Assembly (NCBI RefSeq): GCF_000754095.2
Contig: NZ_JQSG02000003.1
Location: forward strand, 1 to 64,000
Origin: Acidihalobacter prosperus
Lineage (GTDB): Bacteria; Pseudomonadota; Gammaproteobacteria; DSM-5130; Acidihalobacteraceae
DNA length: 64,000 nucleotides
Direction of reading: 5' to 3'
Both the position numbers and the translations under genes were made by a program. A model generated the notes under the pieces. That model saw nothing but the letters and a program-made list of their open reading frames with translations, ran no database searches and was not told where the DNA came from. Of the stretch, positions 43,683-57,874 are shown piece by piece. The first letter of the stretch is position 1, and each line of letters begins with the position of its first letter.

Positions 43683-46600
43683 TCAGCTTCCTGGGTTGTC
43701 CAGCCCGAGCATCCAGGGCTTGATGACGGCGTTTTCCGTGCCGCGCGACGCCCCAATGGGCTGGCGATTGAACCAGTAGCGCACCACCACACCACCCGAC
43801 AGGTTGGTGTAATCCTGACTGTTGTCGGAGCCGAAGAAGCCGCTCACGAACAGCCGGGGCGTCCAGGCGTACGTACCCGTGAAGCGCAGCCCGTAACCCA
43901 CGCTCCCCACGGTGTTTGCAGGATAGTAGGCATTGTTCGACTGGGCTTGCATGTTCGCATCCAGCGGGAAGTACTGGCTGCTGTTCTCGTGAAATATCTG
44001 CCAACCGACCAGCCCCTCGAAGCGGTAGCTGAGGCGGCTGCGCGCCTGCCCCTCCCACTTCATCGTCAGTGCCGGGCGGAAATAGTACTGCGGACTGAAA
44101 TAGCCGCCCTGACCATAGGTGAAATGACTGGAATTGTTGGCATAGAACATCGACAGCAGGTCGAAGCCGATGCCGATACGCGCGCGCTCCTGATCGACGA
44201 TCCGCCAGCTCGCGCCGAGGTTCGCTTCCACTCGCGAGTTGCTCTGCACGTGCTTGCCGTCGACGGCAGCGAGACTGAGACTACCGTAAAGCACCCTTGA
44301 CGACTCGTCCAGACCAAAGCTCATGCCGAGACCGCTGGCAAACACGCCACCCCAGACCAATCCGGTCTTGGGATCCTTGATGCCGGCATAGGACAGTACG
44401 CTATCGCGTAAGCTGTGCCGGAAGGCCATCAACGTAAGCGGACCGCCCGAGGGTTGCCAGTTGAAGGTGCCGATCAAGCTGTGTTCCAGAAAGCCCAGCG
44501 GGGAGGTACCCAACGTCACGGCCAGATTGGGGCGACTGAGCGTCATCGCCAGGGCCAACCCGCTGGCCTTGGCGTAATTGCCCGGCGAGGCGCCATAAAT
44601 GGGGGCGGTACCGATCAGGCTCGCGGCAGCCCCGCTTACCGTACCGGCGTCGACGGCGATCGGCGCCAGACGCACCGTTACCCGCGTGTTGTAATCCACC
44701 GCCGTGCCCCCCTCGAACTGGCTGCCGAACAGCGCCATCTGATCCAGACCGGTGGTGCCGCTACGCGAACGGCCGAAGAAAGCCGCATCGACATAGGGGC
44801 TCATGTGCGCCTCGATGGCCGACAACTCCCGTTCGAGCCGGTCGCGAACCACGGGAGCGTCGGCCGGCGCGACCCCGGTGCGCGTGGAGGCCAGGACCGG
44901 CGACACAGCCGGCTTCGTCGTCGCCTGCGCCCCCTCGGCAAAGGGATATGCGGGTGACGCATTCGCACCGCTGGCAAAGGGATAAGCCTTCGATGCCTGA
45001 CCGCCAACGCCCGGATCGCCTTCCGCCTCCATTTGCCCTGGCAATGTCGCCAAGGCGCTGCGCAGAGCCTTGCGCGCCGCATCCGCATCGCCCCGCTGCA
45101 GATCGACCTTGGCGGCCAGCGACTTGAGTGCCACATCGTCCGGACGCTGCGCGAGGCCTTCGGCAACCCAGCGGCTGGCCTGGCCGGTTTCGCCCGCCGC
45201 CAGAGCGGCGCCGACGGCTGCCTGATAGCCGCTGACGGATTTGCCGGGGCCTACGCGGCGATAGATCGCCACCGCTTCGGCATAATGTCCCTCCTGCACC
45301 AACAGATCGGCCCGCACGCGTTGCACCCCGGCATCGTTCGGATACAAGGCCTGGGCACCGCGTAGAATGGCCTTCGCAATCTCCGGATGCCCGTTTTCCA
45401 GCGCCATTTGCGCCTCGCGGCGCGCGCCGTTGAGGTAGAGCGCGCGCAACTGCGAACGCTGATCATCCGTCAAATCCCCGTGCCCCTGCAGGCGTGTCAG
45501 CAGTGCGTGCAGCGCCATGTCGTCCTCGGCTTGGTACAACAGCCAGGCAAGTTGCAACTGCAGATCGACGGGCGCTTGTGCGCCACCGGCTGCTATCGCC
45601 TTGCGCAGGCGCTCGATGGCCTGCGGGCGATGGTCCGTGGCCGCCTCCGCCCAGGCCATGACGCTCGCATAATCCAGATTCGGCTGCAGGCGACGCTGAA
45701 CCGCGACGGGCATACGCTCGTTCGTGGATATCACCTGCGCGGGGCTGTCCATCGCCTGCAGCGACTGAAGTGCCGCCAACCAGGCCTTCGGATCGCCCGG
45801 CGCCGCGGTGGTCAACGTCTCGAATACCCGGGTGGCTGCCTTGTTTTCCCCGAGTTGCTGGTAGGCGCCGCCCAGGGCGGCCAGGGCGGCCGGATCCTTC
45901 TGCTTGAGGTTGAGCGCCTGGTGGTATGCGTTGACCGCGCCACGATAATCGGCTTTTTCCACGGCCTGCTGCCCGGCGTGCATCCATGACCAGTAACGCG
46001 CATTGCGCGCGGCGGCCACCAGACGCGCCTTGGTCTTGGCGCCATGCGCCAGTGCACGGGCCTGGTCGTAGTATCGCGCAGCCTGTTCGAAATCCTGTGC
46101 GCGCATGGCCACGTCGGCCAGCCCCTCCACCGCCTTGTCATTCTTCGGGTCGCGGGCGAGGATGTGCTTGAAGCGCTCGTCGGCAAGATTCAGGTGCCCC
46201 GCGCGCAGGGCGGCATAGGCATCGGCCAGTTCGCGGCCATGGCGGCGCTGTTTCTGAATCCCCGCCTGCAGCCCCTCAGCCTGCCGCAGTTGCGCGCTCA
46301 GCTCGGCATCCCTGTAACTGGCCAGATAGGCGCGCAGATACGGGATCGCCTTGGGATCGTTGCCCATCCAGGCCAGTGCCTGGCGCCAATCGGAACGTGC
46401 ACCGGACACCTTCTCCCGAGCCAATGCCGCAAGCAGTTTGATGCCCTCGATACGAGTATCGGCGTGATAGCTCAGCAGCTGTCCCAGCACACGACGGTAG
46501 GCGACCTGATTGGGGTGCAGCTGAACCTGGCTGCGCAGTTCGCTGACCGCTGTTTGCCAACCACCCGACACCTTCGCCAGGGTCTGGTAATAGGTTTCCG

Positions 46601-47057
46601 CCCACTTTGGCGGCGGCGGCCCGTTGAACACGCTACGATAGACCGAAACGGCTGCCGCATAACGCTTTTCGCTGACATAGCGGGCGGCCTCGGCCAGCTT
46701 GGGGCCGGCATCCGGCCCCAGCACCAGCAACCCCCGAATCTTTGCGATGGCATCAGACTGGGGCGCCACGCGCTGAAGCCGCTCCATGTAGCGCCTGGCA
46801 TCGCCCAGACGCCCCTGATGGGCGGAATACAATCCAAGACCGGCCAGCGCCTCAGCCTGATTGGGGTCGGCAGCGAGCGCCTGACGCCAGCTCTTGACCG
46901 CAAGATCCTCGCGGCCGTGCTGCTGCCAGTATGCGGCACGCTGAATCAACAGCTGCACCGCCGCGCTGTTGGCCGGATCGGCCGCCAGTGTCAGCACCGG
47001 TGCGCTCAGGCTCAATACGCCCGCCATCACGGTAGGCATCCAGATATGTCGCTTCAT
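43683..47057 (-). CDS. bcsC: BcsC, cellulose export outer-membrane protein
   Basis: This is a 1124-residue protein. A signal peptide (about 1-26, ending in LAA) precedes a long TPR superhelix (about 30-690). Alanine-rich TPR units such as AVKSWRQALAADPNQAEALAGLG are visible. A linker follows with a repeated YPFAxGA element (about 693-715; YPFASGA then YPFAEGA), then the BcsC C-terminal beta-barrel (about 790-1124) ending in RYWFNRQP. It carries cellulose across the periplasm and outer membrane. The start overlaps bcsZ by 4 nt. Length is close to that of E. coli BcsC (about 1157). Confidence 0.94.
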   Translation of the reverse strand: MKRHIWMPTVMAGVLSLSAPVLTLAADPANSAAVQLLIQRAAYWQQHGREDLAVKSWRQALAADPNQAEALAGLGLYSAHQGRLGDARRYMERLQRVAPQSDAIAKIRGLLVLGPDAGPKLAEAARYVSEKRYAAAVSVYRSVFNGPPPPKWAETYYQTLAKVSGGWQTAVSELRSQVQLHPNQVAYRRVLGQLLSYHADTRIEGIKLLAALAREKVSGARSDWRQALAWMGNDPKAIPYLRAYLASYRDAELSAQLRQAEGLQAGIQKQRRHGRELADAYAALRAGHLNLADERFKHILARDPKNDKAVEGLADVAMRAQDFEQAARYYDQARALAHGAKTKARLVAAARNARYWSWMHAGQQAVEKADYRGAVNAYHQALNLKQKDPAALAALGGAYQQLGENKAATRVFETLTTAAPGDPKAWLAALQSLQAMDSPAQVISTNERMPVAVQRRLQPNLDYASVMAWAEAATDHRPQAIERLRKAIAAGGAQAPVDLQLQLAWLLYQAEDDMALHALLTRLQGHGDLTDDQRSQLRALYLNGARREAQMALENGHPEIAKAILRGAQALYPNDAGVQRVRADLLVQEGHYAEAVAIYRRVGPGKSVSGYQAAVGAALAAGETGQASRWVAEGLAQRPDDVALKSLAAKVDLQRGDADAARKALRSALATLPGQMEAEGDPGVGGQASKAYPFASGANASPAYPFAEGAQATTKPAVSPVLASTRTGVAPADAPVVRDRLERELSAIEAHMSPYVDAAFFGRSRSGTTGLDQMALFGSQFEGGTAVDYNTRVTVRLAPIAVDAGTVSGAAASLIGTAPIYGASPGNYAKASGLALAMTLSRPNLAVTLGTSPLGFLEHSLIGTFNWQPSGGPLTLMAFRHSLRDSVLSYAGIKDPKTGLVWGGVFASGLGMSFGLDESSRVLYGSLSLAAVDGKHVQSNSRVEANLGASWRIVDQERARIGIGFDLLSMFYANNSSHFTYGQGGYFSPQYYFRPALTMKWEGQARSRLSYRFEGLVGWQIFHENSSQYFPLDANMQAQSNNAYYPANTVGSVGYGLRFTGTYAWTPRLFVSGFFGSDNSQDYTNLSGGVVVRYWFNRQPIGASRGTENAVIKPWMLGLDNPGS

Positions 47058-48217
47058 CGCCAGTTCACCTCAAGCTTGCCATCGGGATCGAAACGGTAGA
47101 CGCCACCCAGGTAACCCAGCGCAAACAAGGTCAGGTTCTGGTCGTAGTAATGCGCCGGCTGGCCATAAAGCCCGTCCGCCTGGCGCTCCCGTTCGACGAT
47201 TTTCAGTTGCCGCTTCATCAGGGCGCTTGTCCCCAGTGTGTGCAGGTAGGGCAGCAGCGCGGCCGAAAAACCGACCGGGCCATCGCCCTGCCCAACGCCG
47301 GTTGCCATGTCCACCACAACCGGCGGTTGGGCATGAAGGTGCAGATAGTTCGCCATGCCCCAAAGCGCGGCCATCAAGCCGCGGGCCCCCTGTGTGTCCG
47401 GCGGGGTCATGCCCGCCCAGAGATAGACACGGATCGCGTCGTAGCTGCCTGTGTTCGGATATCGCTCAGGCGGGCCATATCCGCCCTTCGGGCACCAGCG
47501 GACCCAGTTGGGCGCGAACCCCCGCGCGGCGACGGCCTCCATGAATCCAGGCAATCCCTTCGCCATCGCGGACCATGGCGCGCCAAGCGCTCGGCCCAAT
47601 GCGGTCAACAGGGGCAAGGGCACATAACTCGGATTGAAGGTGTAGCAACCATCCGCATGGGGGCCGAAGCCCTCGCGACCGGGCAGCAGCATCGGCCCCT
47701 GACCGCGGATGTCGACGACCTCCTTGAGGGCGATCGTCGCGGCCAACCGGCGTCCCAAGCGCGTGTAATCATCCTGATGCCACAACCGACCGGCCTGCAG
47801 CAGGGTATACGCCATCCACAGATCCGCATCCGAAGCCGAATTCGGGTCGAGCACGCCCCATTCACCATTGGCGCGCTTGCCCCACAGCCAGGCTGGCAGA
47901 CGCTCGCCCAGTTCGCCGCCGGCAAGATTGGCCTGCGTCCAGGACAGTAGACGGGCAAACCGAGTGGGCTGGTTGGCCGCCAGCGCGAAGAACATCGCAT
48001 AGGCCTGTGACTCCGAAGTCGTGCGCTGGTCTGGATAGGCCCGATCGATCACCCGGCCCTGCGGATCGATGAAGTGCTTGGCATAGGCGTCCCACAGATG
48101 CTCGAAGCGCGCCGGATCGACCGCGCTATGGACCTGTGCGCAGGCCGACAGCAGGATCAGCACAAGGCCGATCCCGCTGCCGCGTAGCAGCACCATCAGA
48201 TGGCTGCCGCGTCCCAT
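47054..48217 (-). CDS. bcsZ: BcsZ, family 8 cellulase with predicted lipobox
   Basis: This 387-residue endoglucanase resembles E. coli BcsZ along its whole length. Conserved are the catalytic-Glu region (TTSESQAYAMFFALAAN), LPAWLWGKRANGEWGVLDPN, SYDAIRVYLWAGM and KGGYGPP. It trims cellulose during export. Unlike the E. coli protein, the signal region ends in LLSACAQ, a lipobox, so it may be lipidated rather than free in the periplasm. I chose the ATG at 48217; a later ATG at 48196 would keep the lipobox. It lies 2 nt after bcsAB and overlaps bcsC. Confidence 0.9.
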   Translation of the reverse strand: MGRGSHLMVLLRGSGIGLVLILLSACAQVHSAVDPARFEHLWDAYAKHFIDPQGRVIDRAYPDQRTTSESQAYAMFFALAANQPTRFARLLSWTQANLAGGELGERLPAWLWGKRANGEWGVLDPNSASDADLWMAYTLLQAGRLWHQDDYTRLGRRLAATIALKEVVDIRGQGPMLLPGREGFGPHADGCYTFNPSYVPLPLLTALGRALGAPWSAMAKGLPGFMEAVAARGFAPNWVRWCPKGGYGPPERYPNTGSYDAIRVYLWAGMTPPDTQGARGLMAALWGMANYLHLHAQPPVVVDMATGVGQGDGPVGFSAALLPYLHTLGTSALMKRQLKIVERERQADGLYGQPAHYYDQNLTLFALGYLGGVYRFDPDGKLEVNWR

Positions 48218-48219
48218 CG

Positions 48220-51200
48220 TCAGTTGGCAGGCAACCGCTTGGCGGCACGGCGACGCAGCAAGGCACCGACCAGCCAGGCGAGGATCAGCGCAGCGATCAC
48301 CACGCCAATCCAAATCACCCAGGGATGACGGCTCATGTGGTAACGCAGCCAGGTCCAGGCCGGCAGTTTGCCGACGTAGTAATCCGGCGTATGCAGAATG
48401 AACGAACTGACCTCGTCGCCGTGCACGATACTCAGATTGCCGAACACGTGCTTGCGCTTGTCGGCGCTCGCCAGCGTGTCGAGCAACGCCTCCCAACCGG
48501 CATCGCCCCTGGCCGACATCACCAGCAGGGCTCGTGAGTGATGCAGCGGCGACACGCCTTCCTCGATCACGGCCTGTGGGATCGCGCCGGACGACGCGAA
48601 CCGTCCGAGCGCCGCCTCGCCGTAATGGCGATCGTCGCCATTCCACCAGGGCAGGTGCCAGCGCGACTCGGCAAACCAGCCAGCCAGATTGTTCAGCTTG
48701 ATGCCATCATGGCCATACACCAGGGGCAGGTGATCGCCCCATTGCTGCATCGCCGCTCCATCCGGTGTGGTGAAGGCCAGCAGATTCCTCGCCGCCACGC
48801 TCCCGGCTTCATGCGGCCTGACCACCGCCACCCGTATGCCCGGCATACCGGTCTGCTGCCCGAACATCCCCATGACATTCAGATAAGCATGCAGCATCGA
48901 TACATCTGCCGTGGCCGGCAGCACGACGGCCGTGCGCGACAGATCCGCATATCGGGTAAAGGGATAACCGCCGTTCATCCAGATCGAGAGCGCGGGCAAG
49001 CGGGTGTAATGCGGAATCCCGCGCAGATCGATGGTGGAATCGGGGTAGATCACGCCCGCGGCATTGTAGACGTTGGTCTGCGTGCACTTGCCCTTGACCG
49101 GCACGAAATAGAACGTCGCGCTCATGGAATTGGCATAGGGATGCAGGACGCTGGCCGGGAAGCTCAGCTCCTGCTTCTGCTGCTGATCGACCCCAGCGCC
49201 CTGGGGCAGATCGAAGGCATGTACGAAATTGCCGTTGGCATTCAAATTAAGCGTCGAATTGGCGGCAATCGGGACCGAATTGTAGCCATAGTGCAGATTC
49301 ACCGGCACTCCAGGACGATCCCACAGGAACAATGAAGGCGGCAGGTAGAAGGTGAACGGCAATGTGCCCGTACCCTTCACGGCCATGGGGTTCCAGCCGG
49401 CCAGCGCATCCAGACGTACCGGTCCCGTGCTGGGCACCCAGCGTGGCGCGTCGTCCGGCTTGGACAACGGCGGCATCTCCACGCTTGCCACCTGCGTATC
49501 CGCACCCTCGAGCATCGCCGACCCAAGCACGAGCCCACGGGCTGCCGTGACGAGTTGGGCCTCGTTCTCGCCCAACACCCACAGAATCTTGCCGTAGGTA
49601 TCGTTGGGATTGGCGGTCACCGCGATCATAGGCCCACTCACGACGGGCAGTCCGGCCAGCGGCGGTAGATTTTGCGATGTGGCAAAGACCACCGCATTGC
49701 CGGAGGACGGCAGGCTGCCGATATCGACCGGAAAGTCGGTGCCGCGGTAGCTGGCCAGATCACCGAACCAGGAGGCCACGATTCCCGCCGCCTGCAACGT
49801 GGTACTGCCCGGCTGGGTGAAAAAGACGAAGGGCAGCTTGAGTCGATCCTGCAGCGACTTGTAGAAGAACGGCGCGGGCAGGTAACGCAGATTGTTGCTC
49901 AACGCCAGACGCGCGCCCGAAATCGTCAGCTCGGTGCGCGGCGAAATGGTGGCCCACAGGGTGCTGTTGCTGGGATCCTCACACTGGTCGGTATAGTGCC
50001 CGATCAGCTGGAAGCCGAGGTGATTGTATTCCGAGAACAGGTTCGGATTGACCGGAAACGTCACCGTATGCTCGTTGCCCTGATTGTCCCCGGGCTGTAC
50101 CGGTATGGCACGTACTACCTGGTCGTTGAGCAGGACATTGATCTGACTGACCCGCGGCAGCAAGCCTGGCGAAAGATGGTAGCGCATGGTCATTTCGGCC
50201 TTGGCCACGACTTGGTCGGGCGGGATCGACAGGGCCACGCCCTGAACGCCGTCGACTCCGGTCATACGCAACCCGCGCTTGGCGCCGAGGTCGCCCAGGG
50301 TCCAGTGGCGCGAAATGCTGCCCTGCGCGGCGGCGGTTTCCGCCTGAACCGGCTGCGGCAGCCCGGCCAACCCCGCGATCCCCGTCAGCAGCAGCACAGC
50401 CAGCATGGTGCTGGTCGCGCCGCTCTTGGCCGCGCTGGCGCCCGCCGGTTTTGCTTGGGCGCGCGGCGCACGCGTCCAGATGCCGCGCAGCAGGCGACCG
50501 ACGCCGACGATGGCCAGCAATCCGACCTGCACCAGGCTGCGCCAGGGCCGGTCTTCCTGCCGCGCCTCGCCCCAACCCACCCAGGCATCGGCACGACCAT
50601 AGATGATCCGCACGAGATCACCGGTCTGTTCGTTATTGAGATCGCTGAACCTGAGCCGCATCAAATTCTCCTCCGAGAAAGTCACTGTCGCCGGAAAACG
50701 GTATTCGCTTCCGTCGTAAACCACGCCGATGATCACGCTGTCGCCCAGCGGCATGCGCGCCGATACCTGCAGGCTCGTCCCGCCCTCGGAAACATCCACG
50801 GTCTTGGCCAGCATGCGATGGCCGTCCTGCCGGTAGATCATGGCCGGCAGGGAGAGCGGCACGCGGACCTTCTCCCTCACCTGACGCGTTTCCCAGTTCA
50901 CGCCGAGCACCACGCTGATCATGAGCAGGTTGTAGATCGTCCAGGCCGTGGTCATGACGATGGTTGCGGTATCCGCATGCGGCTCCAGATGCCAGCGCAT
51001 CACCGCCGCCACCAGCCCCCCCGCGTTGAGCAGGAACAGCACCACGAAAGGTGCGGCGAAACGCCGATCGAAATAGGCCTTGCGCACCAGGCCACCCTTG
51101 GCCGTGACGTTGAACTTGCCCAGCTTCGGGTTGATCACCGCCAGCAGGGTGGGCAGCAGGATGTACGGCGCCAGCGCCGTCTCGTAGACCTCGTTCCAGA

Positions 51201-52566
51201 AGGAGTTGCGATGACGCCCCTGCACGCGCGAGTTCGCGATCATGGCCAGTGCCAGATGCGGCAGCGAATAGGCCGCGATACTGAGCGCATAGGCGTTGAT
51301 CACGTAAACGCCGAAATACAGATACAGCAGCGGCGCCGTGAGGAAGATCAGCCGCGGCACCGCGAAAAAGAAATGCAGCATCGCGTTGAGATAGCAGAGA
51401 CGCTGCATCGGCTTGAGCCCTGGGCCGGTCAGCGGGTTGTCGACGCGCATGATCTGCGCCATGCCGCGCGCCCAGCGGATACGCTGACCGACGTGCCCCG
51501 AGAAACTGTCCGTGGCAAGTCCGGCAGCCTGCGGCACGTTGAGATAGGCCGAATTCCAGCCGAGACGCTGCAGCTTGAGCGAGGTATGCGCGTCCTCGGT
51601 GACCGTTTCCGTCGCGATGCCGCCGATCTGCTCCAGCGCTTCCCGACGCATCACGGCACAGGATCCGCAGAAAAAAGCGGCATTCCACAGGTCGTTGCCG
51701 TCCTGTACCACACCGTAGAAAAGCTCGCCTTCGTTCGGCACCCGCTTGAACACATTCAGGTTGCGCTCGAAGGGATCGGGCGAATAAAAGTGATGCGGCG
51801 TCTGCACCAGGCCGAGTTTGTCGTCGCGCAGGAACCAGCCCATCGCCACCTGCAGGAACGAACGGGTCGGCACGTGATCGGAATCGAAGATCGCAATGTA
51901 TTCGCCGTCCGTTTTGCCGAGCGCATGGTTCAGGTTGCCTGCCTTGGCATGTTTGTGCTCCGAGCGGGTGATGTAACCCACGCCGACATCGCGCGCGAAA
52001 TCACGGAATTCGCTGCGCACGCCGTCGTCGAGCAGATACACGGCAAACTTGTCCCGCGGCCAGTCCATTTGCATGGCCGCCAGCACCGTGGGCCGTACGA
52101 CATCGAGCGATTCGTTGTAGGTGGGGATGTAAACGTCGACCGTCGGCCAGTCCTGCGTCGAGGTGGGCAGCGGCTGCGGTTTGCGTTGCAGCGGGTAGGC
52201 CGTCTGCAGAAAGCCGAGCACCAGCACCAGCCAGGCATAGACCTCGGCCAGGAACAGGGTCAGGGTGATCGCGATGTCATACCAGTGGTAGCCGGCCACG
52301 CCGAAACCGAGTGTCTCCGTAGCGCGCCAGTAGGCATAACGGGCCGTTGCGAACAACGATAGCGCCATCAGGAAATAGGTTATCCAGTGCGCCTTGAACA
52401 GACGATTAACCAGAATCGCGAGCACTACGAACCCAAGGCCCAGCAAGGCCTGAGCCTGCCATTCGAACGGCACGGCGATCATCGGCGAGAACAGGATCAC
52501 TCCGGCCACGAAGGCGGCCATGAGTAGGGTTTCCTCAAGCCTGAACACACGTTTGATACGATCCAT
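48220..52566 (-). CDS. bcsAB: BcsA-BcsB fusion, cellulose synthase catalytic and periplasmic subunits
   Basis: This is a 1448-residue fusion. The BcsA part (about 1-700) has N-terminal membrane helices and a GT2 domain with DDG (180-182), DSD (228-230), TED (323-325) and QRIRW (361-365). More helices follow, then a PilZ domain with RxxxR (REKVR, 564-568) and DxSxxG (DVSEGG, 591-596), the c-di-GMP site. A hydrophobic segment (about 720-740, LAVLLLTGIAGLAGL) replaces the BcsB signal. The BcsB part follows (about 745-1448), with a C-terminal membrane anchor near 1415-1437. Comparable fusions are known as AcsAB in acetic acid bacteria. An ideal SD (GGGAGG) sits 8 nt before the chosen ATG. Confidence 0.95.
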   Translation of the reverse strand: MDRIKRVFRLEETLLMAAFVAGVILFSPMIAVPFEWQAQALLGLGFVVLAILVNRLFKAHWITYFLMALSLFATARYAYWRATETLGFGVAGYHWYDIAITLTLFLAEVYAWLVLVLGFLQTAYPLQRKPQPLPTSTQDWPTVDVYIPTYNESLDVVRPTVLAAMQMDWPRDKFAVYLLDDGVRSEFRDFARDVGVGYITRSEHKHAKAGNLNHALGKTDGEYIAIFDSDHVPTRSFLQVAMGWFLRDDKLGLVQTPHHFYSPDPFERNLNVFKRVPNEGELFYGVVQDGNDLWNAAFFCGSCAVMRREALEQIGGIATETVTEDAHTSLKLQRLGWNSAYLNVPQAAGLATDSFSGHVGQRIRWARGMAQIMRVDNPLTGPGLKPMQRLCYLNAMLHFFFAVPRLIFLTAPLLYLYFGVYVINAYALSIAAYSLPHLALAMIANSRVQGRHRNSFWNEVYETALAPYILLPTLLAVINPKLGKFNVTAKGGLVRKAYFDRRFAAPFVVLFLLNAGGLVAAVMRWHLEPHADTATIVMTTAWTIYNLLMISVVLGVNWETRQVREKVRVPLSLPAMIYRQDGHRMLAKTVDVSEGGTSLQVSARMPLGDSVIIGVVYDGSEYRFPATVTFSEENLMRLRFSDLNNEQTGDLVRIIYGRADAWVGWGEARQEDRPWRSLVQVGLLAIVGVGRLLRGIWTRAPRAQAKPAGASAAKSGATSTMLAVLLLTGIAGLAGLPQPVQAETAAAQGSISRHWTLGDLGAKRGLRMTGVDGVQGVALSIPPDQVVAKAEMTMRYHLSPGLLPRVSQINVLLNDQVVRAIPVQPGDNQGNEHTVTFPVNPNLFSEYNHLGFQLIGHYTDQCEDPSNSTLWATISPRTELTISGARLALSNNLRYLPAPFFYKSLQDRLKLPFVFFTQPGSTTLQAAGIVASWFGDLASYRGTDFPVDIGSLPSSGNAVVFATSQNLPPLAGLPVVSGPMIAVTANPNDTYGKILWVLGENEAQLVTAARGLVLGSAMLEGADTQVASVEMPPLSKPDDAPRWVPSTGPVRLDALAGWNPMAVKGTGTLPFTFYLPPSLFLWDRPGVPVNLHYGYNSVPIAANSTLNLNANGNFVHAFDLPQGAGVDQQQKQELSFPASVLHPYANSMSATFYFVPVKGKCTQTNVYNAAGVIYPDSTIDLRGIPHYTRLPALSIWMNGGYPFTRYADLSRTAVVLPATADVSMLHAYLNVMGMFGQQTGMPGIRVAVVRPHEAGSVAARNLLAFTTPDGAAMQQWGDHLPLVYGHDGIKLNNLAGWFAESRWHLPWWNGDDRHYGEAALGRFASSGAIPQAVIEEGVSPLHHSRALLVMSARGDAGWEALLDTLASADKRKHVFGNLSIVHGDEVSSFILHTPDYYVGKLPAWTWLRYHMSRHPWVIWIGVVIAALILAWLVGALLRRRAAKRLPAN

Positions 52567-52567
52567 C

Positions 52568-53752
52568 TCACGCACCTCCCGGCGGGGTGCTGGTCGAATC
52601 CGGCTGAATCATGTCCTCGAGCCAGGCTTCAAATTCGTCGATGGCGCGGGCGAACGGTGTGTAGGCACGGTAAACCTGGGGCGGCTGACCGTTGGCCAGC
52701 GCCTCCTGCACCGAATTGTCCAGCGGCAACGAAAGCGTCAGCAGACGGCTTCCCAGGCGCTTGCGCAAGGCCTCCGAAACCTGGACGTGCAACTCACGCG
52801 CGGCGTCGAACTGATTGAGCAGATACCACGTGCCGTAACGCGGACGATGGACAGCCTCGTCAAGCGCCCGCTCGATGCGTTCGATCATCACCAGGGCGTT
52901 GATGTCCGGACGCACGGGGACGATGGCCATGTCGAAGAAAGGCAAATCCTCGGCCACGTGGGGCGAGGCCTCCATATCCATCACCACCACCGATGCCTGC
53001 GACGCACGATGGCGGACATTCTCGATCAGTTCCGCGGTCGGCGCGTCGCCGATCAGCAAGTCGACCGGTTTGCCGCCACCCTCGATGGCCTGCGAGTAAT
53101 GCACGATTGCCGCACCACTGCGCGCACTTTCGATATCGGGCCCGCCGAAGTAATAAGCCAATGGCGAGTACGGAGTCTGTCCGACCAGGGCGCAGCGCCG
53201 ATTCAGGCGAGCAAAGGCAGCACCGAGCGCTGCGGCCAGCGTGCTCTTGCCGACGCCACCGGTGTAGGACACCAGCCCGATGACCGGCGCCAGCGTCCGC
53301 TCATCCTGCCGGCCACCGGACTCAAGCCGGTTCAGCAGGGAAAATCGCGAGGCCGACGTCGCCTGCTCGGGCGCTTTAACCACTTGAGACGGCGCAAGCG
53401 GTTGCCCGGTCACAGCGGCACGCGAACGGGCGACCGGCTCCGATGGCGCCGGGATATCCGCGCGCGGCAGATCCGCGCGTTCCAGTGTCATCACCGCATC
53501 GCCCCCGGCTTCGACGTGCCGCCTTGCGGTCGTGCCTTGCGCCCTCGAAGGCGGGATGAATTCTTCCGACCGGCTTTCGTCGACCCACGCCGACGGCGGC
53601 GGCGGCGGCTCGTCGAAGCGCTGATACGACGAGGGCTCAAGACCAAGATCGCGGTACAAATTGCGTACATCGGCCAATGGATCGACCCCACCCACCGTCG
53701 CCGTGCGGGGTCGCCGCCACCATTGCCACCATGCCTTCCGTTCGTTCGCCAT
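52568..53752 (-). CDS. bcsQ: BcsQ, ParA/MinD-like cellulose-synthesis protein with long N-terminal extension
   Basis: This 394-residue protein has a C-terminal half (about 155-394) that is a ParA-type ATPase with Walker A SYTGGVGKST. It lacks the extra ParA lysine before GG, as E. coli BcsQ does. The N-terminal 150 residues are proline- and serine-rich and probably disordered, with a short conserved-looking segment DVRNLYRDLGLEPSSYQ (about 28-44) reminiscent of BcsP/BcsR-type proteins. BcsQ helps place or activate the synthase. It is the first gene of the bcs operon (1 nt before bcsAB), divergent from the AfsR-like gene. Confidence 0.88.
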   Translation of the reverse strand: MANERKAWWQWWRRPRTATVGGVDPLADVRNLYRDLGLEPSSYQRFDEPPPPPSAWVDESRSEEFIPPSRAQGTTARRHVEAGGDAVMTLERADLPRADIPAPSEPVARSRAAVTGQPLAPSQVVKAPEQATSASRFSLLNRLESGGRQDERTLAPVIGLVSYTGGVGKSTLAAALGAAFARLNRRCALVGQTPYSPLAYYFGGPDIESARSGAAIVHYSQAIEGGGKPVDLLIGDAPTAELIENVRHRASQASVVVMDMEASPHVAEDLPFFDMAIVPVRPDINALVMIERIERALDEAVHRPRYGTWYLLNQFDAARELHVQVSEALRKRLGSRLLTLSLPLDNSVQEALANGQPPQVYRAYTPFARAIDEFEAWLEDMIQPDSTSTPPGGA

Positions 53753-54064
53753 CGTTCAACCCTCGTCTGATCGCATCAAGACAGGCTCCATTGCCACACT
53801 TGCAGGGTATTCCCCCTACCGTCACGCCACCGTCAGCGGCTCCGGCACACCCCTTTGCGTCCCCACCCGGCACTCCGTCACCGGGATCGCCGGCCAGGGC
53901 ACGCCCTGAACGCCGCCCCTCACGCAACCGACGCGGCGGCGTCCGGATTCGCCTATACGCCGGGCAGGGGGAACCTGTTAGACTCGGTCAAAATCATAAA
54001 GGGGTTCCGTCACACGTCCGTCAGGCTTGATGTGGGAGACGGATTCATCAGGATCCGCGACACA
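53753..54064. promoter_or_regulatory. Divergent intergenic region between bcsQ and the AfsR-like gene
   Basis: These 312 bp hold no gene I can support. They must carry the promoters of the bcs operon (minus strand) and of the AfsR-like gene (plus strand). The bcsQ side has a GAGGG ribosome binding site about 8 nt before the ATG. I see no convincing sigma-54 or sigma-70 pair and no clean operator repeat. The reading frame of the regulator stays open through this region in one frame, but the sequence there is arginine-rich and non-homologous. Confidence 0.6.
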
Positions 54065-57000
54065 ATGCAGGCACTCAGGCTCTCGCTGCTCGGCCCGATC
54101 GAAATCGAGTTTCAGAACCGGCAATTTTCGGGCGCGCCGCATGACAAGGGTTTCATGCTGCTGTCCTATCTGGCCGCGGAAAGCGACCGGCCGCACAGCC
54201 GCGAAGCGCTGGCCGAAATGCTGTGGCCTGACCTGCCGGCGGAGCGCGGGCGCCACAACCTGCGCCAAACGCTGTTCCGGCTGCGCAGCCTGCTTGGCAA
54301 CGGTGCCGCGGGCGACTTCCTTGAAACCGACCGCCACCGCGTCTGGTTCAACCGACATAGCGACTACCGCCTCGATCTCGATCAGTTCCTCCATGCGCGC
54401 GACGACGACATGGAATCGCTGCTGTACCGCCTCGGTCTCTATCGCGGCATGTTCATGGAAGATCTGCGCAACGAGGCGGGAGAGGATTTCGGGTTGTGGC
54501 TGGAGGAGCGACGCGCGCGTACGCATCGCCTGATGCTGACCATGCTGGAAGCGGCCTGCACGCGCTACGAATCCCAGAACGACCCAATGGCTGCATTGCG
54601 CTGGGCCGGCCGCTATGTCGAACTCGCCCCTTGGGACGAAGACGGGCACCGCCGCCTGATTCGCCTGCTCGCCGATAACGGCCAGCGCGGCGCCGCCATT
54701 GCCCACTACCGCGCCATGGCCGAATCACTCGATCGCGAGTTGGGCATCGCCCCCTCGCCCGAAAGCCGCAGGCTGCTCGAGCGCATCGAACAGACCGCAA
54801 CCCCGCAAACCGACACCCGGACGCGCAATCCCGCATGGCACGGGGAACACCATGCCGGGCTCGCGCACGAGTACCGGCAGATCACGGTCCTGCGGTGCGG
54901 ATTCGCCTACCAGGACATCGAGGATCCCGAAGCATTTGCAGAGGAGGTTGCCGAACCGATCGCCCTGGCCGTACGCATCATCGAGGAGCACAACGGCTGG
55001 ATCGCCGCGGCGCGCAGCACCGGCATCCTGGCGTATTTCGGCTGGCCAACCGCGGACGAGCGCGCCGCCACGCATGCCGTACGCGCCGCCATCGGTGTCG
55101 TCAATCAGGTGTCCGATCCGATCGGACGCAAGCTCGCCACCGGCATCCACACCGGCCCCATCATCCTGACCGGCGAAACCTCGCGCCCCGATACCATCGG
55201 CATGACCACCGATATCGCGGTGCGTCTGCAGGTGTCCGCGCGTCCAGGCATCATCGCGATCAGCGAAGCCACGCGACGCTGCATACGCGATCATTTCGAA
55301 CTCACGGCCCTGCCGCCGCTGAGTATGGCGGAACAAAAACGTCCCCTGTCCGTCTGGCGCGTCCATCGGGGCAGCCAGGGCGCACTGATGGACGGCCGTG
55401 CGCAGAAACCGCCGCTGATCGGCCGCGATGCCGAACTCGAATGCCTGCTCGACGACTGGGAACAGGCCCAGAGCGGACGATGCACGATCACCGTACTCGT
55501 CGGCGATGCCGGCCTGGGCAAGACCCGGCTGTTGCAGGCCCTGCACGAAAAGGCCGACCGCCCCCTGCTGCGGGAGACCTATTGCGATCCCCTGATGCAG
55601 CAGACCCCCTACCACCCGATCATGCACTTCTTCCGGCGCCATCTCGATCTGCCGCGGCATTGCCCCGACACGCTCGTGACCCGGGCGCTAAGCGAGCACT
55701 ATGCCGGGTTCCCGAACCAGGGCGAAGCCATCATCAAGCCATTGCAATGGCTGCTCGCGCGCCCATCGAGTCCCCAGGAGCAGGACACGAATGCCCACAG
55801 CGGCGACGGCGAGCGCCATCAGCTGGCCGAGGCCGTCGCCGCCCTGCTGGAAACGAGCGCGGAAGCGACGCCCTTGCTGCTCGTGATCGAGGATCTCCAT
55901 TGGGCAGACCCTTCCACGCTGGCGCTGCTGGGCTATCTGGCCACGCGGCTCGCCCGGGCACGCGTTCACATCTGTCTGACCATGCGCAGTACCGCCTGCC
56001 TTCCCGCCAACCTCATTGACAGGGCCCGGATCCTGCAGCTCCGGCCACTCGACCTGAAGTCCTCGCTCCACCTCACCCAGCGTATCGCCCCGCCCGACAA
56101 GACCAGCGGAGACTTCGCCCTGGTGATCGCCAAACAATCGGAAGGCAACCCCTTGTTCATCGTGGAACTGACCCACATGCTCCACGACGATGCCCTGGAC
56201 GACGCGCTGCCTGGCAAGCTTCAGGAACTGATCAGTACCCGTATCGAGCAGGCCGGCGCAGATAAGCCGCTGCTGCGTGCGGCAGCCATCATCGGCCGCG
56301 AATTCAGTACCGCCCATCTTGCCGGTCTGCTCCAGTTGCCGGAAGAAACGGTCTCTGCGGGACTCGATCGCCTGACGCAACGCCATCTCATCGACCAGCC
56401 CGCGGACGATAACGAACATTACCACTTCACCCATGCCCTGGTTCACCAGACGACCTATCAATCGGCCACGCGCAGCCAACGGCGGGCACTGCATCAGCAA
56501 TACGCCGCGCTGCTGCAATCGGAAAACGATCCCGATGCCGGCGCCATCGCCTGGCATCTGACGGAAACGGGCAGTTACGCAGACGCGGTCGGCTGGTGGC
56601 TCAAAAGCGGCCGCGACGCAGCCGGCATGGCAGCCTACGTCGAGGCCACCAGTCATTTCGAACGCGGGCTGCAGTTGCTGGAACACAGCCCTGAAAGGGC
56701 CCGGTTGTGGAGCATCGAACTCGATCTGCTGATCAATCTGGCCTATCCGCTTGCCATCACCCAAGGGTATTACGGCGCCAAATCGGAACGTCTCTACCGG
56801 CGCGCACTGGAGATCAGCAAGGACCACGACGTCGAACCCCGGCAAAGCCTGGCGCTGCTGCGCAGCTATTGGTTCGGTGCCAGCAGCCGCAAGTCCTTCA
56901 GCGAAAGCCGCCTGATCGCAGGCCGCATGATCGAACTGGCCGAATCGGTACACGCCAATGCCTTCACGGCACTTGGACACTACCTCTACGGCAATGCCTC

Positions 57001-57874
57001 ACTATGGCTCGGCGACTTTTCCCTCGCCCGGGACCACCTCGAGGAAACGCTGTCCAGGATGGACCGCAAGGATCAGGAAACGGAGCAGTTCCTGCGCAAC
57101 GACCAGCAGTTCGATGTCACCGCCACCGGCTATCTTGGCTGGAACCTGTGGTTCCTGGGCCATATCGACCGCTCCCTGCGCATGACCCAGCGCGCGGTAC
57201 ACATGGCCGAAACGCGCCACCACCCCGCGACCCTGATGGCCGCGCTCGCCACCTATATCGGCACCCGCATCTGGTGCCAGAGGGCCGACGAGGTGGCCGT
57301 GGCAGCCAAGCGTCTCGGTGCGTTGTGCCGGGAACACGGATTCCGCATATGGGACGATGTCGCCGTTCTCGCCGAGGCCTGGGCGAGAACGGTCAACGCC
57401 GGGCGCTGCGAGCCCGGCGGACTCGACGAAGCCGAGGAAACCCTCCATCGCGTGGTGACCCTCTGGCCGGGCGGCGCAACGGGATTCCAGTACATACTGC
57501 TCGACGCCTGCCTGTTCGCGGCCGACACGACCCGTGGCTGGCGCATACTCTCGCAGGCCTGGACGTCGATGCAGGCGACAGGCTCGCGCGCCTACCATGT
57601 GGGCTGCAAGCTCGCCGAGGCGAGGCTGCTTGCCCTGGAAGGGCAGAACCACGAACATTGCCTGCGTGAGGCCATCGAAATCGCCGAGCAGCAACAGGCC
57701 CGCAGCCTCGAAATACTCGCCTGGGGACGGCTCGCCAGGCATTATGCCGCGCACGACATTCGGCTTCCGGAAGGCATTCACGAGCGTCTCATCGACATGC
57801 TCGATCACTGCTCCGGCATCGAACTCGCCCCTGAACTGGCCTTTATCGAAAAACAGCTCCGCGGCTTTGCCTGA
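54065..57874 (+). CDS. AfsR/SARP-like regulator: winged helix, BTAD, degenerate cyclase, AAA ATPase, TPR
   Basis: This is a 1269-residue cytoplasmic protein. An OmpR-like winged helix (about 1-95; SREALAEMLWPDLPAERGRH) precedes a BTAD domain (about 110-245). A class III nucleotidyl-cyclase fold follows (about 268-435; GIHTGPIILTGE). It lacks the metal aspartates: LRCGF stands where FCDL is usual and RSTG where GDG is usual. An AAA/STAND ATPase comes next (Walker A GDAGLGKT near 480, Walker B LLLVIEDLHWAD near 605), then TPR-like helices (about 800-1269). AGGA lies 12 nt before the ATG. Divergence from bcsQ suggests, without proof, control of cellulose genes. Confidence 0.85.
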   Translation: MQALRLSLLGPIEIEFQNRQFSGAPHDKGFMLLSYLAAESDRPHSREALAEMLWPDLPAERGRHNLRQTLFRLRSLLGNGAAGDFLETDRHRVWFNRHSDYRLDLDQFLHARDDDMESLLYRLGLYRGMFMEDLRNEAGEDFGLWLEERRARTHRLMLTMLEAACTRYESQNDPMAALRWAGRYVELAPWDEDGHRRLIRLLADNGQRGAAIAHYRAMAESLDRELGIAPSPESRRLLERIEQTATPQTDTRTRNPAWHGEHHAGLAHEYRQITVLRCGFAYQDIEDPEAFAEEVAEPIALAVRIIEEHNGWIAAARSTGILAYFGWPTADERAATHAVRAAIGVVNQVSDPIGRKLATGIHTGPIILTGETSRPDTIGMTTDIAVRLQVSARPGIIAISEATRRCIRDHFELTALPPLSMAEQKRPLSVWRVHRGSQGALMDGRAQKPPLIGRDAELECLLDDWEQAQSGRCTITVLVGDAGLGKTRLLQALHEKADRPLLRETYCDPLMQQTPYHPIMHFFRRHLDLPRHCPDTLVTRALSEHYAGFPNQGEAIIKPLQWLLARPSSPQEQDTNAHSGDGERHQLAEAVAALLETSAEATPLLLVIEDLHWADPSTLALLGYLATRLARARVHICLTMRSTACLPANLIDRARILQLRPLDLKSSLHLTQRIAPPDKTSGDFALVIAKQSEGNPLFIVELTHMLHDDALDDALPGKLQELISTRIEQAGADKPLLRAAAIIGREFSTAHLAGLLQLPEETVSAGLDRLTQRHLIDQPADDNEHYHFTHALVHQTTYQSATRSQRRALHQQYAALLQSENDPDAGAIAWHLTETGSYADAVGWWLKSGRDAAGMAAYVEATSHFERGLQLLEHSPERARLWSIELDLLINLAYPLAITQGYYGAKSERLYRRALEISKDHDVEPRQSLALLRSYWFGASSRKSFSESRLIAGRMIELAESVHANAFTALGHYLYGNASLWLGDFSLARDHLEETLSRMDRKDQETEQFLRNDQQFDVTATGYLGWNLWFLGHIDRSLRMTQRAVHMAETRHHPATLMAALATYIGTRIWCQRADEVAVAAKRLGALCREHGFRIWDDVAVLAEAWARTVNAGRCEPGGLDEAEETLHRVVTLWPGGATGFQYILLDACLFAADTTRGWRILSQAWTSMQATGSRAYHVGCKLAEARLLALEGQNHEHCLREAIEIAEQQQARSLEILAWGRLARHYAAHDIRLPEGIHERLIDMLDHCSGIELAPELAFIEKQLRGFA

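Follow-up and report, generated by a model that had tools for sequence, protein, structure and literature searches.

A SARP-LAL-type regulator gene with a degenerate cyclase domain and conserved candidate operators in Acidihalobacter prosperus

The descriptions of SARP-LAL regulators that we found, in sources available in part, come from Streptomyces antibiotic clusters. According to the accessible text of these sources, SARP-LALs bind heptamers with 4-bp spacers, and the operator of PimR lies between pimR and its divergent neighbour (PMC3367932, PMC5930380). An 11-bp direct-repeat geometry is likewise reported for SARPs in the available portions of PMC3367932, PMC5930380 and PMC10972967, and for AfsR the accessible part of PMC10936776 describes a SARP activity held down by the NOD and TPR parts until ATP releases it. 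Here we analyse a gene located at 54065-57874, on the forward strand, of a 64,000-nucleotide stretch of the Acidihalobacter prosperus genome (contig NZ_JQSG02000003.1, positions 1 to 64,000), which is referred to below as the window. The gene product has the architecture of a SARP-LAL-type (PimR class) regulator, in a proteobacterium. On balance, we read it as such a regulator with an inactive cyclase module, the clearest candidate target of which is its own promoter.

The SARP-LAL class was already known; what is added here is a proteobacterial member with candidate operators, a family-level contrast in catalytic residues, and the accessory nature of the adjacent cellulose (bcs) operon. Database matches include proteobacterial records labelled 'BTAD domain-containing putative transcriptional regulator', and a literature search, with most subscription journals outside it, turned up neither a description of a proteobacterial SARP-LAL nor one of a BTAD protein with bcs.

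Architecture of the regulator and its cyclase domain

The region is a single open gene of 1269 amino acids, and the reading frame and coordinates of the first-pass annotation of the window were correct. Three congeners were compared, namely the window's own genome (G000), G001 and G002. Both of the other congener proteins align from the ATG at 54065, and the TTG at 53855 is therefore only the mechanical longest start. The two orthologues, at 76% and 69% identity, are free of internal stops, indicating a real gene. The following features were assigned to it:

54065..57874, forward strand: SARP-LAL-type regulator gene, 1269 amino acids (open reading frame, Pfam, congener alignment)
54146..54334, forward strand: winged helix, residues 28-90 (Trans_reg_C E 3e-5, just below cut-off; AfsR/EmbR fold matches)
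54431..54787, forward strand: BTAD, residues 123-241 (PF03704 E 7e-15, over cut-off)
54866..55375, forward strand: degenerate class III cyclase domain, residues 268-437 (alignment, predicted structure, structural match)
55412..55975, forward strand: AAA_16 ATPase, residues 450-637 (PF13191 E 5e-23, over cut-off)
56465..57871, forward strand: C-terminal region, weakly TPR-like, residues 801-1269 (TPR_2 at 969-997, E 0.004, below cut-off)

The Guanylate_cyc match of Pfam, at residues 356-422, was weak (E 0.012, below cut-off). The ATPase part carries a Walker A motif (GDAGLGKT) and a Walker B-like motif (VIEDLHWAD), both recognised by eye from the translation, and no GerE/LuxR-type match was present at the C terminus among the nine Pfam families matched at E <= 0.1. 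An AlphaFold model of residues 1-445, built from 31 aligned sequences and ending before the TPR part, showed a SARP module and a class III cyclase fold, with a mean predicted local distance difference test score (pLDDT) of 87.8 and a predicted template modelling score (pTM) of 0.59. Foldseek searches with this model retrieved cyclases and, among others, AfsR (8k60, 8hvr) and EmbR (2ff4, 2fez), to which the SARP part corresponds, while VIA-align superposed about residues 266-438 on CyaB (3r5g_B) with a Z of 23.5 and a root-mean-square deviation of 2.2 over 172 residues. The protein thus combines an N-terminal SARP domain, a cyclase-like part without the signature and an AAA part, with no C-terminal LuxR helix-turn-helix, which are traits of a SARP-LAL.

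The winged helix/BTAD module, cyclase fold and AAA ATPase had been named in the first-pass annotation, and Pfam and the predicted fold agree with it; the TPR-like region that it also named is weakly supported by sequence, through the TPR_2 match. Its label 'AfsR-like' suits the fold of the SARP module, but 'SARP-LAL/PimR-like' is more exact because AfsR, as described in the accessible part of PMC10936776, is without a cyclase part.

In an alignment of 31 rows, the positions of the first and second metal aspartates of class III cyclases are occupied by G279 and T319 in the window protein, so that neither member of the pair that marks an active enzyme is present. The loss of both had been claimed from the window alone, and the alignment, which includes 18 relatives without BTAD, confirmed it. 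In the N-x3-R motif the Arg is kept (R387) and the Asn position is Asp383, as it is in both congeners. Both metal aspartates were found in none of the 13 BTAD-fused rows (0/11 with the three congeners counted once), a status that was assigned where the alignment to the SARP part covered 150 residues or more and Pfam-checked for the window protein and L004 only, compared with 15 of the 18 rows without BTAD. The first Asp is kept in L006 and L012, L032 has an Asp at the second position, and a second Asp is possible in L004 if the alignment is shifted by one; none of these four has both. The count excludes L030, whose N terminus is of kinase type and whose positions likewise look degenerate. When a tree was built for the cyclase-AAA part, ten BTAD-fused rows, including that of the window, grouped together (support 90/86), with the remaining three elsewhere on long branches; the BTAD label requires 3 changes on this tree, versus 10.4 in shuffles. 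Judging from these residues, the cyclase is catalytically dead, and so are the cyclases of its closest architectural relatives.

Pairwise identity among the congeners was 79, 80 and 72% in the cyclase domain, 78, 70 and 71% in the AAA part, and 75, 62 and 62% in the C-terminal part, while the linker beside the cyclase domain has 27% identity between congeners. The cyclase domain, being as conserved as the AAA part, above the C-terminal part and next to so variable a linker, is therefore under constraint and not decaying.

Candidate operators upstream of the gene

An alignment of the three congeners over the DNA between the preceding gene and the start codon contains six runs of at least 4 conserved bases. 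Four of them are the half-sites of two boxes, CGTCAC and CGTCA in box 1 and CCGTCAC and CGTCA in box 2. The other two are AACCTG (53972-53977), followed by TAnACT, and CGAC near the start codon. The upstream elements are:

53820..53835, forward strand: box 1, CGTCAC-N5-CGTCA direct repeat, 11-bp period (three-congener alignment, genome motif scan)
53972..53984, forward strand: AACCTG-n-TAnACT, read as an extended -10 element, no -35 seen (conservation in three congeners)
54008..54023, forward strand: box 2, CGTCAC-N5-CGTCA direct repeat, 11-bp period (three-congener alignment, genome motif scan)

Heptameric direct repeats with 4-bp spacers are present and conserved upstream of the gene as a candidate operator, for which PhoB is a rival binder (see below). 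Both boxes are kept in all three congeners, including G002, which gave no BcsAB match, and they flank the -10-like element, with box 1 about 150 bp upstream of it. Box 2 begins 23, 24 and 25 bp past TAnACT in the three congeners, which would place it at roughly +16 onwards if TAnACT is the -10. At this position, immediately past the -10-like element, protein bound to box 2 should repress. A sigma-70 and terminator scan of 53600-54200 found nothing, and the -10-like element is thus named from its conservation. Distances of 188, 158 and 176 bp between the boxes were too irregular to claim a DNA loop by helical phasing.

Exact matches to the box numbered 2 in G000, 3 in G001 and 5 in G002, two of them at the regulator gene in each genome, while the reversed-pattern control gave 1, 1 and 1. 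The other four exact matches (G001, G002) fall inside open frames at least 192 codons long. In the one-mismatch scan of G001, CGTTACCAGAGCGTCA recurs at 9 or so places among the matches listed and is probably a repeated element.

Perfect heptamer repeats at 11-bp spacing were found in 7 of 30 upstream regions of BTAD-type genes (5 with the congeners counted once), in a set that leaves out L119 and has mechanically set gene starts; the carriers beyond the three congeners are L010, L012, L032 and L097. At each of the other 22 spacings in the range 8 to 30, such repeats occurred in 0-3 regions, with a total of 24. Two CGTCAAG-type doublets in a row were seen in L051, upstream of the L032 gene, and a CGTTCAC-N4-CGTTCAC doublet in L097, upstream of its BTAD gene; both are distant BTAD-fused genes.

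The conserved candidate boxes around the -10-like element suggest autoregulation, as far as sequence comparison can indicate it. In the mechanism that we propose, the SARP module (winged helix and BTAD) would bind the tandem heptamers with 11-bp period. The AAA/STAND part and the C-terminal helical region would keep the regulator off until ATP, perhaps with a ligand, releases it as in AfsR; an ATP-dependent switch of this kind is suggested by the intact Walker motifs and by the AfsR analogy. The cyclase domain would yield no cyclic nucleotide and could act as a dimerising or ligand-binding module, and is likely the place where a nucleotide or partner is received. The gene's own promoter would be repressed through box 2, with which box 1 may act together. 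With small proteobacterial genomes, a conserved dead cyclase and two compact candidate operators, the locus offers a tractable system for the role of a pseudo-cyclase in a SARP.

Several points weigh against autorepression by the SARP module. The box motif was derived from the same alignment that shows its conservation, and from only three congeners. When one mismatch is allowed, box counts equal those of the reversed control (62 v 63, 86 v 83 and 89 v 101), so that no wider regulon is visible, and such a regulon was rejected as a candidate. At 6/7 matches the 11-bp spacing occurs in 15/30 regions versus 4-14 for other spacings; as the excess nearly vanishes, the family-wide repeat is a hint only, and most of the distant BTAD-fused genes are without a perfect 11-bp repeat upstream. 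Known SARPs are activators, and PimR activates pimM according to the accessible text of PMC3367932. Finally, TGTCAC-N5-TGTCA repeats before phosphate-related genes of these congeners, described below, match boxes 1 and 2 in period and very nearly in sequence.

The cellulose operon and rival explanations

The gene diverges from a set of cellulose genes, as the first-pass annotation had stated. The divergent bcsQ (52568-53752, minus strand) is followed, in order, by a fused bcsA-bcsB, bcsZ and bcsC:

52568..53752, reverse strand: bcsQ-like gene, divergent neighbour (CBP_BcsQ E 3e-9; TIGR03371 below its cut-off)
48220..52575, reverse strand: fused bcsA-bcsB open reading frame, neighbour (profile matches)
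47054-48646, reverse strand: bcsZ, neighbour (profile matches)
43683-47057, reverse strand: bcsC, neighbour (profile matches)

The bcsA-bcsB fusion is one open reading frame of 1451 amino acids, with relatives in named genomes that include Acidobacteriota metagenome-assembled genomes, Herbaspirillum and Pseudomonas. At its N terminus the bcsQ-like protein is extended; the extension gives a BcsR match below threshold (residues 27-44, E 0.047), and the protein is perhaps a BcsR-BcsQ fusion. No signal of a horizontal origin of bcs was found by G+C (bcs 0.641 vs window 0.634).

G000 and G001 share the order pilB-pilC-pilD-coaE, bcsC-Z-AB-Q on the other strand, regulator gene, zapD and, further on, secA, while in G002, which has no bcs at this place, pilB-pilC-pilD-coaE is followed by the regulator gene, zapD and secA. 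The bcs block is thus present in 2/3 congeners, and the orthologue of the bcs-less one (76% identity) stands at the same place, between coaE and zapD. No BcsAB match was obtained at E <= 1e-10 in G002, G003 or G004; G002 is one contig and 99% complete. Among 369 genomes of the class, a homologue of the regulator occurs in 38, BcsB in 18 and both in 3 (G000, G001 and G029); the two are adjacent only in G000 and G001, of one genus, and lie on different contigs in G029. A BTAD profile found no match in 16 stretches around other bcs loci of the class, 14 of which gave a BcsA match and some of which end at contig ends, and a profile of the window cyclase found none in 80 named BcsAB loci. The BTAD profile weakly matched 15 of the 80 named bcs loci, and the three of these that were checked were a BcsC, a TPR protein and a winged-helix and TPR protein without AAA or cyclase. 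A winged-helix and TPR protein of this kind, encoded at 2878-5016 of L145, lies upstream of a bcs locus in an Acidobacteriales metagenome-assembled genome. When 18 stretches surrounding further homologues of the class were searched by tblastn (L038-L055; several short or cut), none yielded BcsA, B, C or Q. A P0001-based search of genome contigs for relatives confirmed none. The cellulose operon is therefore an accessory neighbour of the regulator gene.

These results bear on the proposal of the first-pass annotation, which had inferred control of the cellulose genes from placement. A dedicated regulator of the divergent operon would agree with the arrangement in G000 and G001, and in these genomes the bcsQ start codon has box 1 at 68 and 70 bp on its upstream side, which makes an effect on bcs possible; PimR likewise reaches a divergent neighbour through a single intergenic operator, according to the available text of PMC3367932. 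However, G002, with no BcsAB match, retains both boxes and has the gene at the same place, the profile searches met no such regulator at other sampled bcs loci, and the stretches around other homologues yielded no Bcs proteins, so that homologues lie far from bcs and the remark that this is not a standard bcs neighbour holds. We consider a cellulose-dedicated regulator very unlikely and have set it aside as the principal reading, a case in which a tempting inference from placement was corrected.

A stronger competitor, possible but in our view still doubtful, is that the boxes are PhoB sites, either because the gene belongs to the Pho regulon or because PhoB competes with the SARP for one stretch of DNA. 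Such competition exists in Streptomyces between PhoP and AfsR, with overlapping sites reported in the accessible parts of PMC10936776 and PMC4415409. TGTCAC-N5-TGTCA stands 10-11 bp before a TAGACT/TAGGCT -10-like element at a PstS-like gene in 3/3 congeners, and in the same arrangement before phoU, divergent from ppk1, in two; L079, L075, L086, L085 and L074 hold these likely Pho boxes of the genus, near position 1501, in front of the PstS-like gene or in the ppk1-phoU intergenic region. A third site, kept in three congeners between genes without a Pfam match and a ParA-like gene, carries C in its first half-site in two genomes (G001, G002) and T in the third (G000), and because of this interchange sequence alone cannot separate SARP from PhoB. 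This third 11-bp repeat lies near position 1501 of L077, L088 and L082, beside the ParA-like gene, and its downstream genes are without a Pfam match. By contrast, C is found in all 12 half-sites of boxes 1 and 2, versus T in the 10 half-sites that precede phoU and the PstS-like gene, counts that reflect shared descent and are not independent. No -10-like element stands 10-11 bp after either box, the conserved one being located between the two, and canonical PhoB activation therefore does not fit. A combined scheme, which we regard as quite unlikely, would have SARP and PhoB competing for one promoter through near-Pho-box operators while the dead cyclase senses a nucleotide, thus coupling phosphate to a nucleotide signal, with bcs, inserted beside box 1, drawn in. 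For the cyclase domain itself, a role as half of an active heterodimer, lending partner-side residues to another cyclase, has a precedent in the mammalian C1/C2 pairing and would agree with the retained R387 and the intact fold. Against it, the Asn of N-x3-R is Asp383 in the window protein and both congeners, and BTAD-fused rows vary at the positions of this motif; we hold this role to be highly improbable. Autoregulation by a SARP-LAL-type protein with an inactive cyclase remains our preferred reading.

Comparison with known systems

Cyclase-AAA-TPR proteins are widespread, and a cyclase-AAA part is found in many plasmid records, but 15/18 of the aligned relatives without BTAD keep the metal Asp pair. 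Residues 258-1223 match the TOMM kinase/cyclase fusion family TIGR03903 with 299 bits, against a cut-off of 705.75 bits, and the window protein is without the kinase. PhoB and its Pho box share the OmpR-type winged helix and the 11-bp direct repeats, while the window half-sites have C for T and another placement relative to the -10-like element. AfsR of Streptomyces coelicolor has the same SARP fold, ATPase, helical C-terminal part and 11-bp repeats, and its reported binding overlap with a phosphate regulator, in the text available, parallels the rival reading for the window gene; it differs in being described, in the accessible part of PMC10936776, as SARP, NOD and TPR without a cyclase part.

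The closest systems are the SARP-LALs of Streptomyces (PimR, SanG, PolR and FilR/PteR). The window protein differs from them in being proteobacterial, in a CCGTCAC-like heptamer in place of CGGCAAG, in AAA_16 as its best ATPase match, and in the position of one box downstream of the -10-like element; no antibiotic cluster was seen at the locus, where the flanking genes are bcs or coaE on one side and zapD on the other, and no dedicated cluster search was made. It shares with them the N-terminal SARP, the guanylate-cyclase-like part without the N-terminal cyclase signature, as PimR is described in the text available, the ATPase part, the absence of a C-terminal LuxR helix-turn-helix, and, as a candidate operator, heptameric repeats with 4-bp spacers near the gene.

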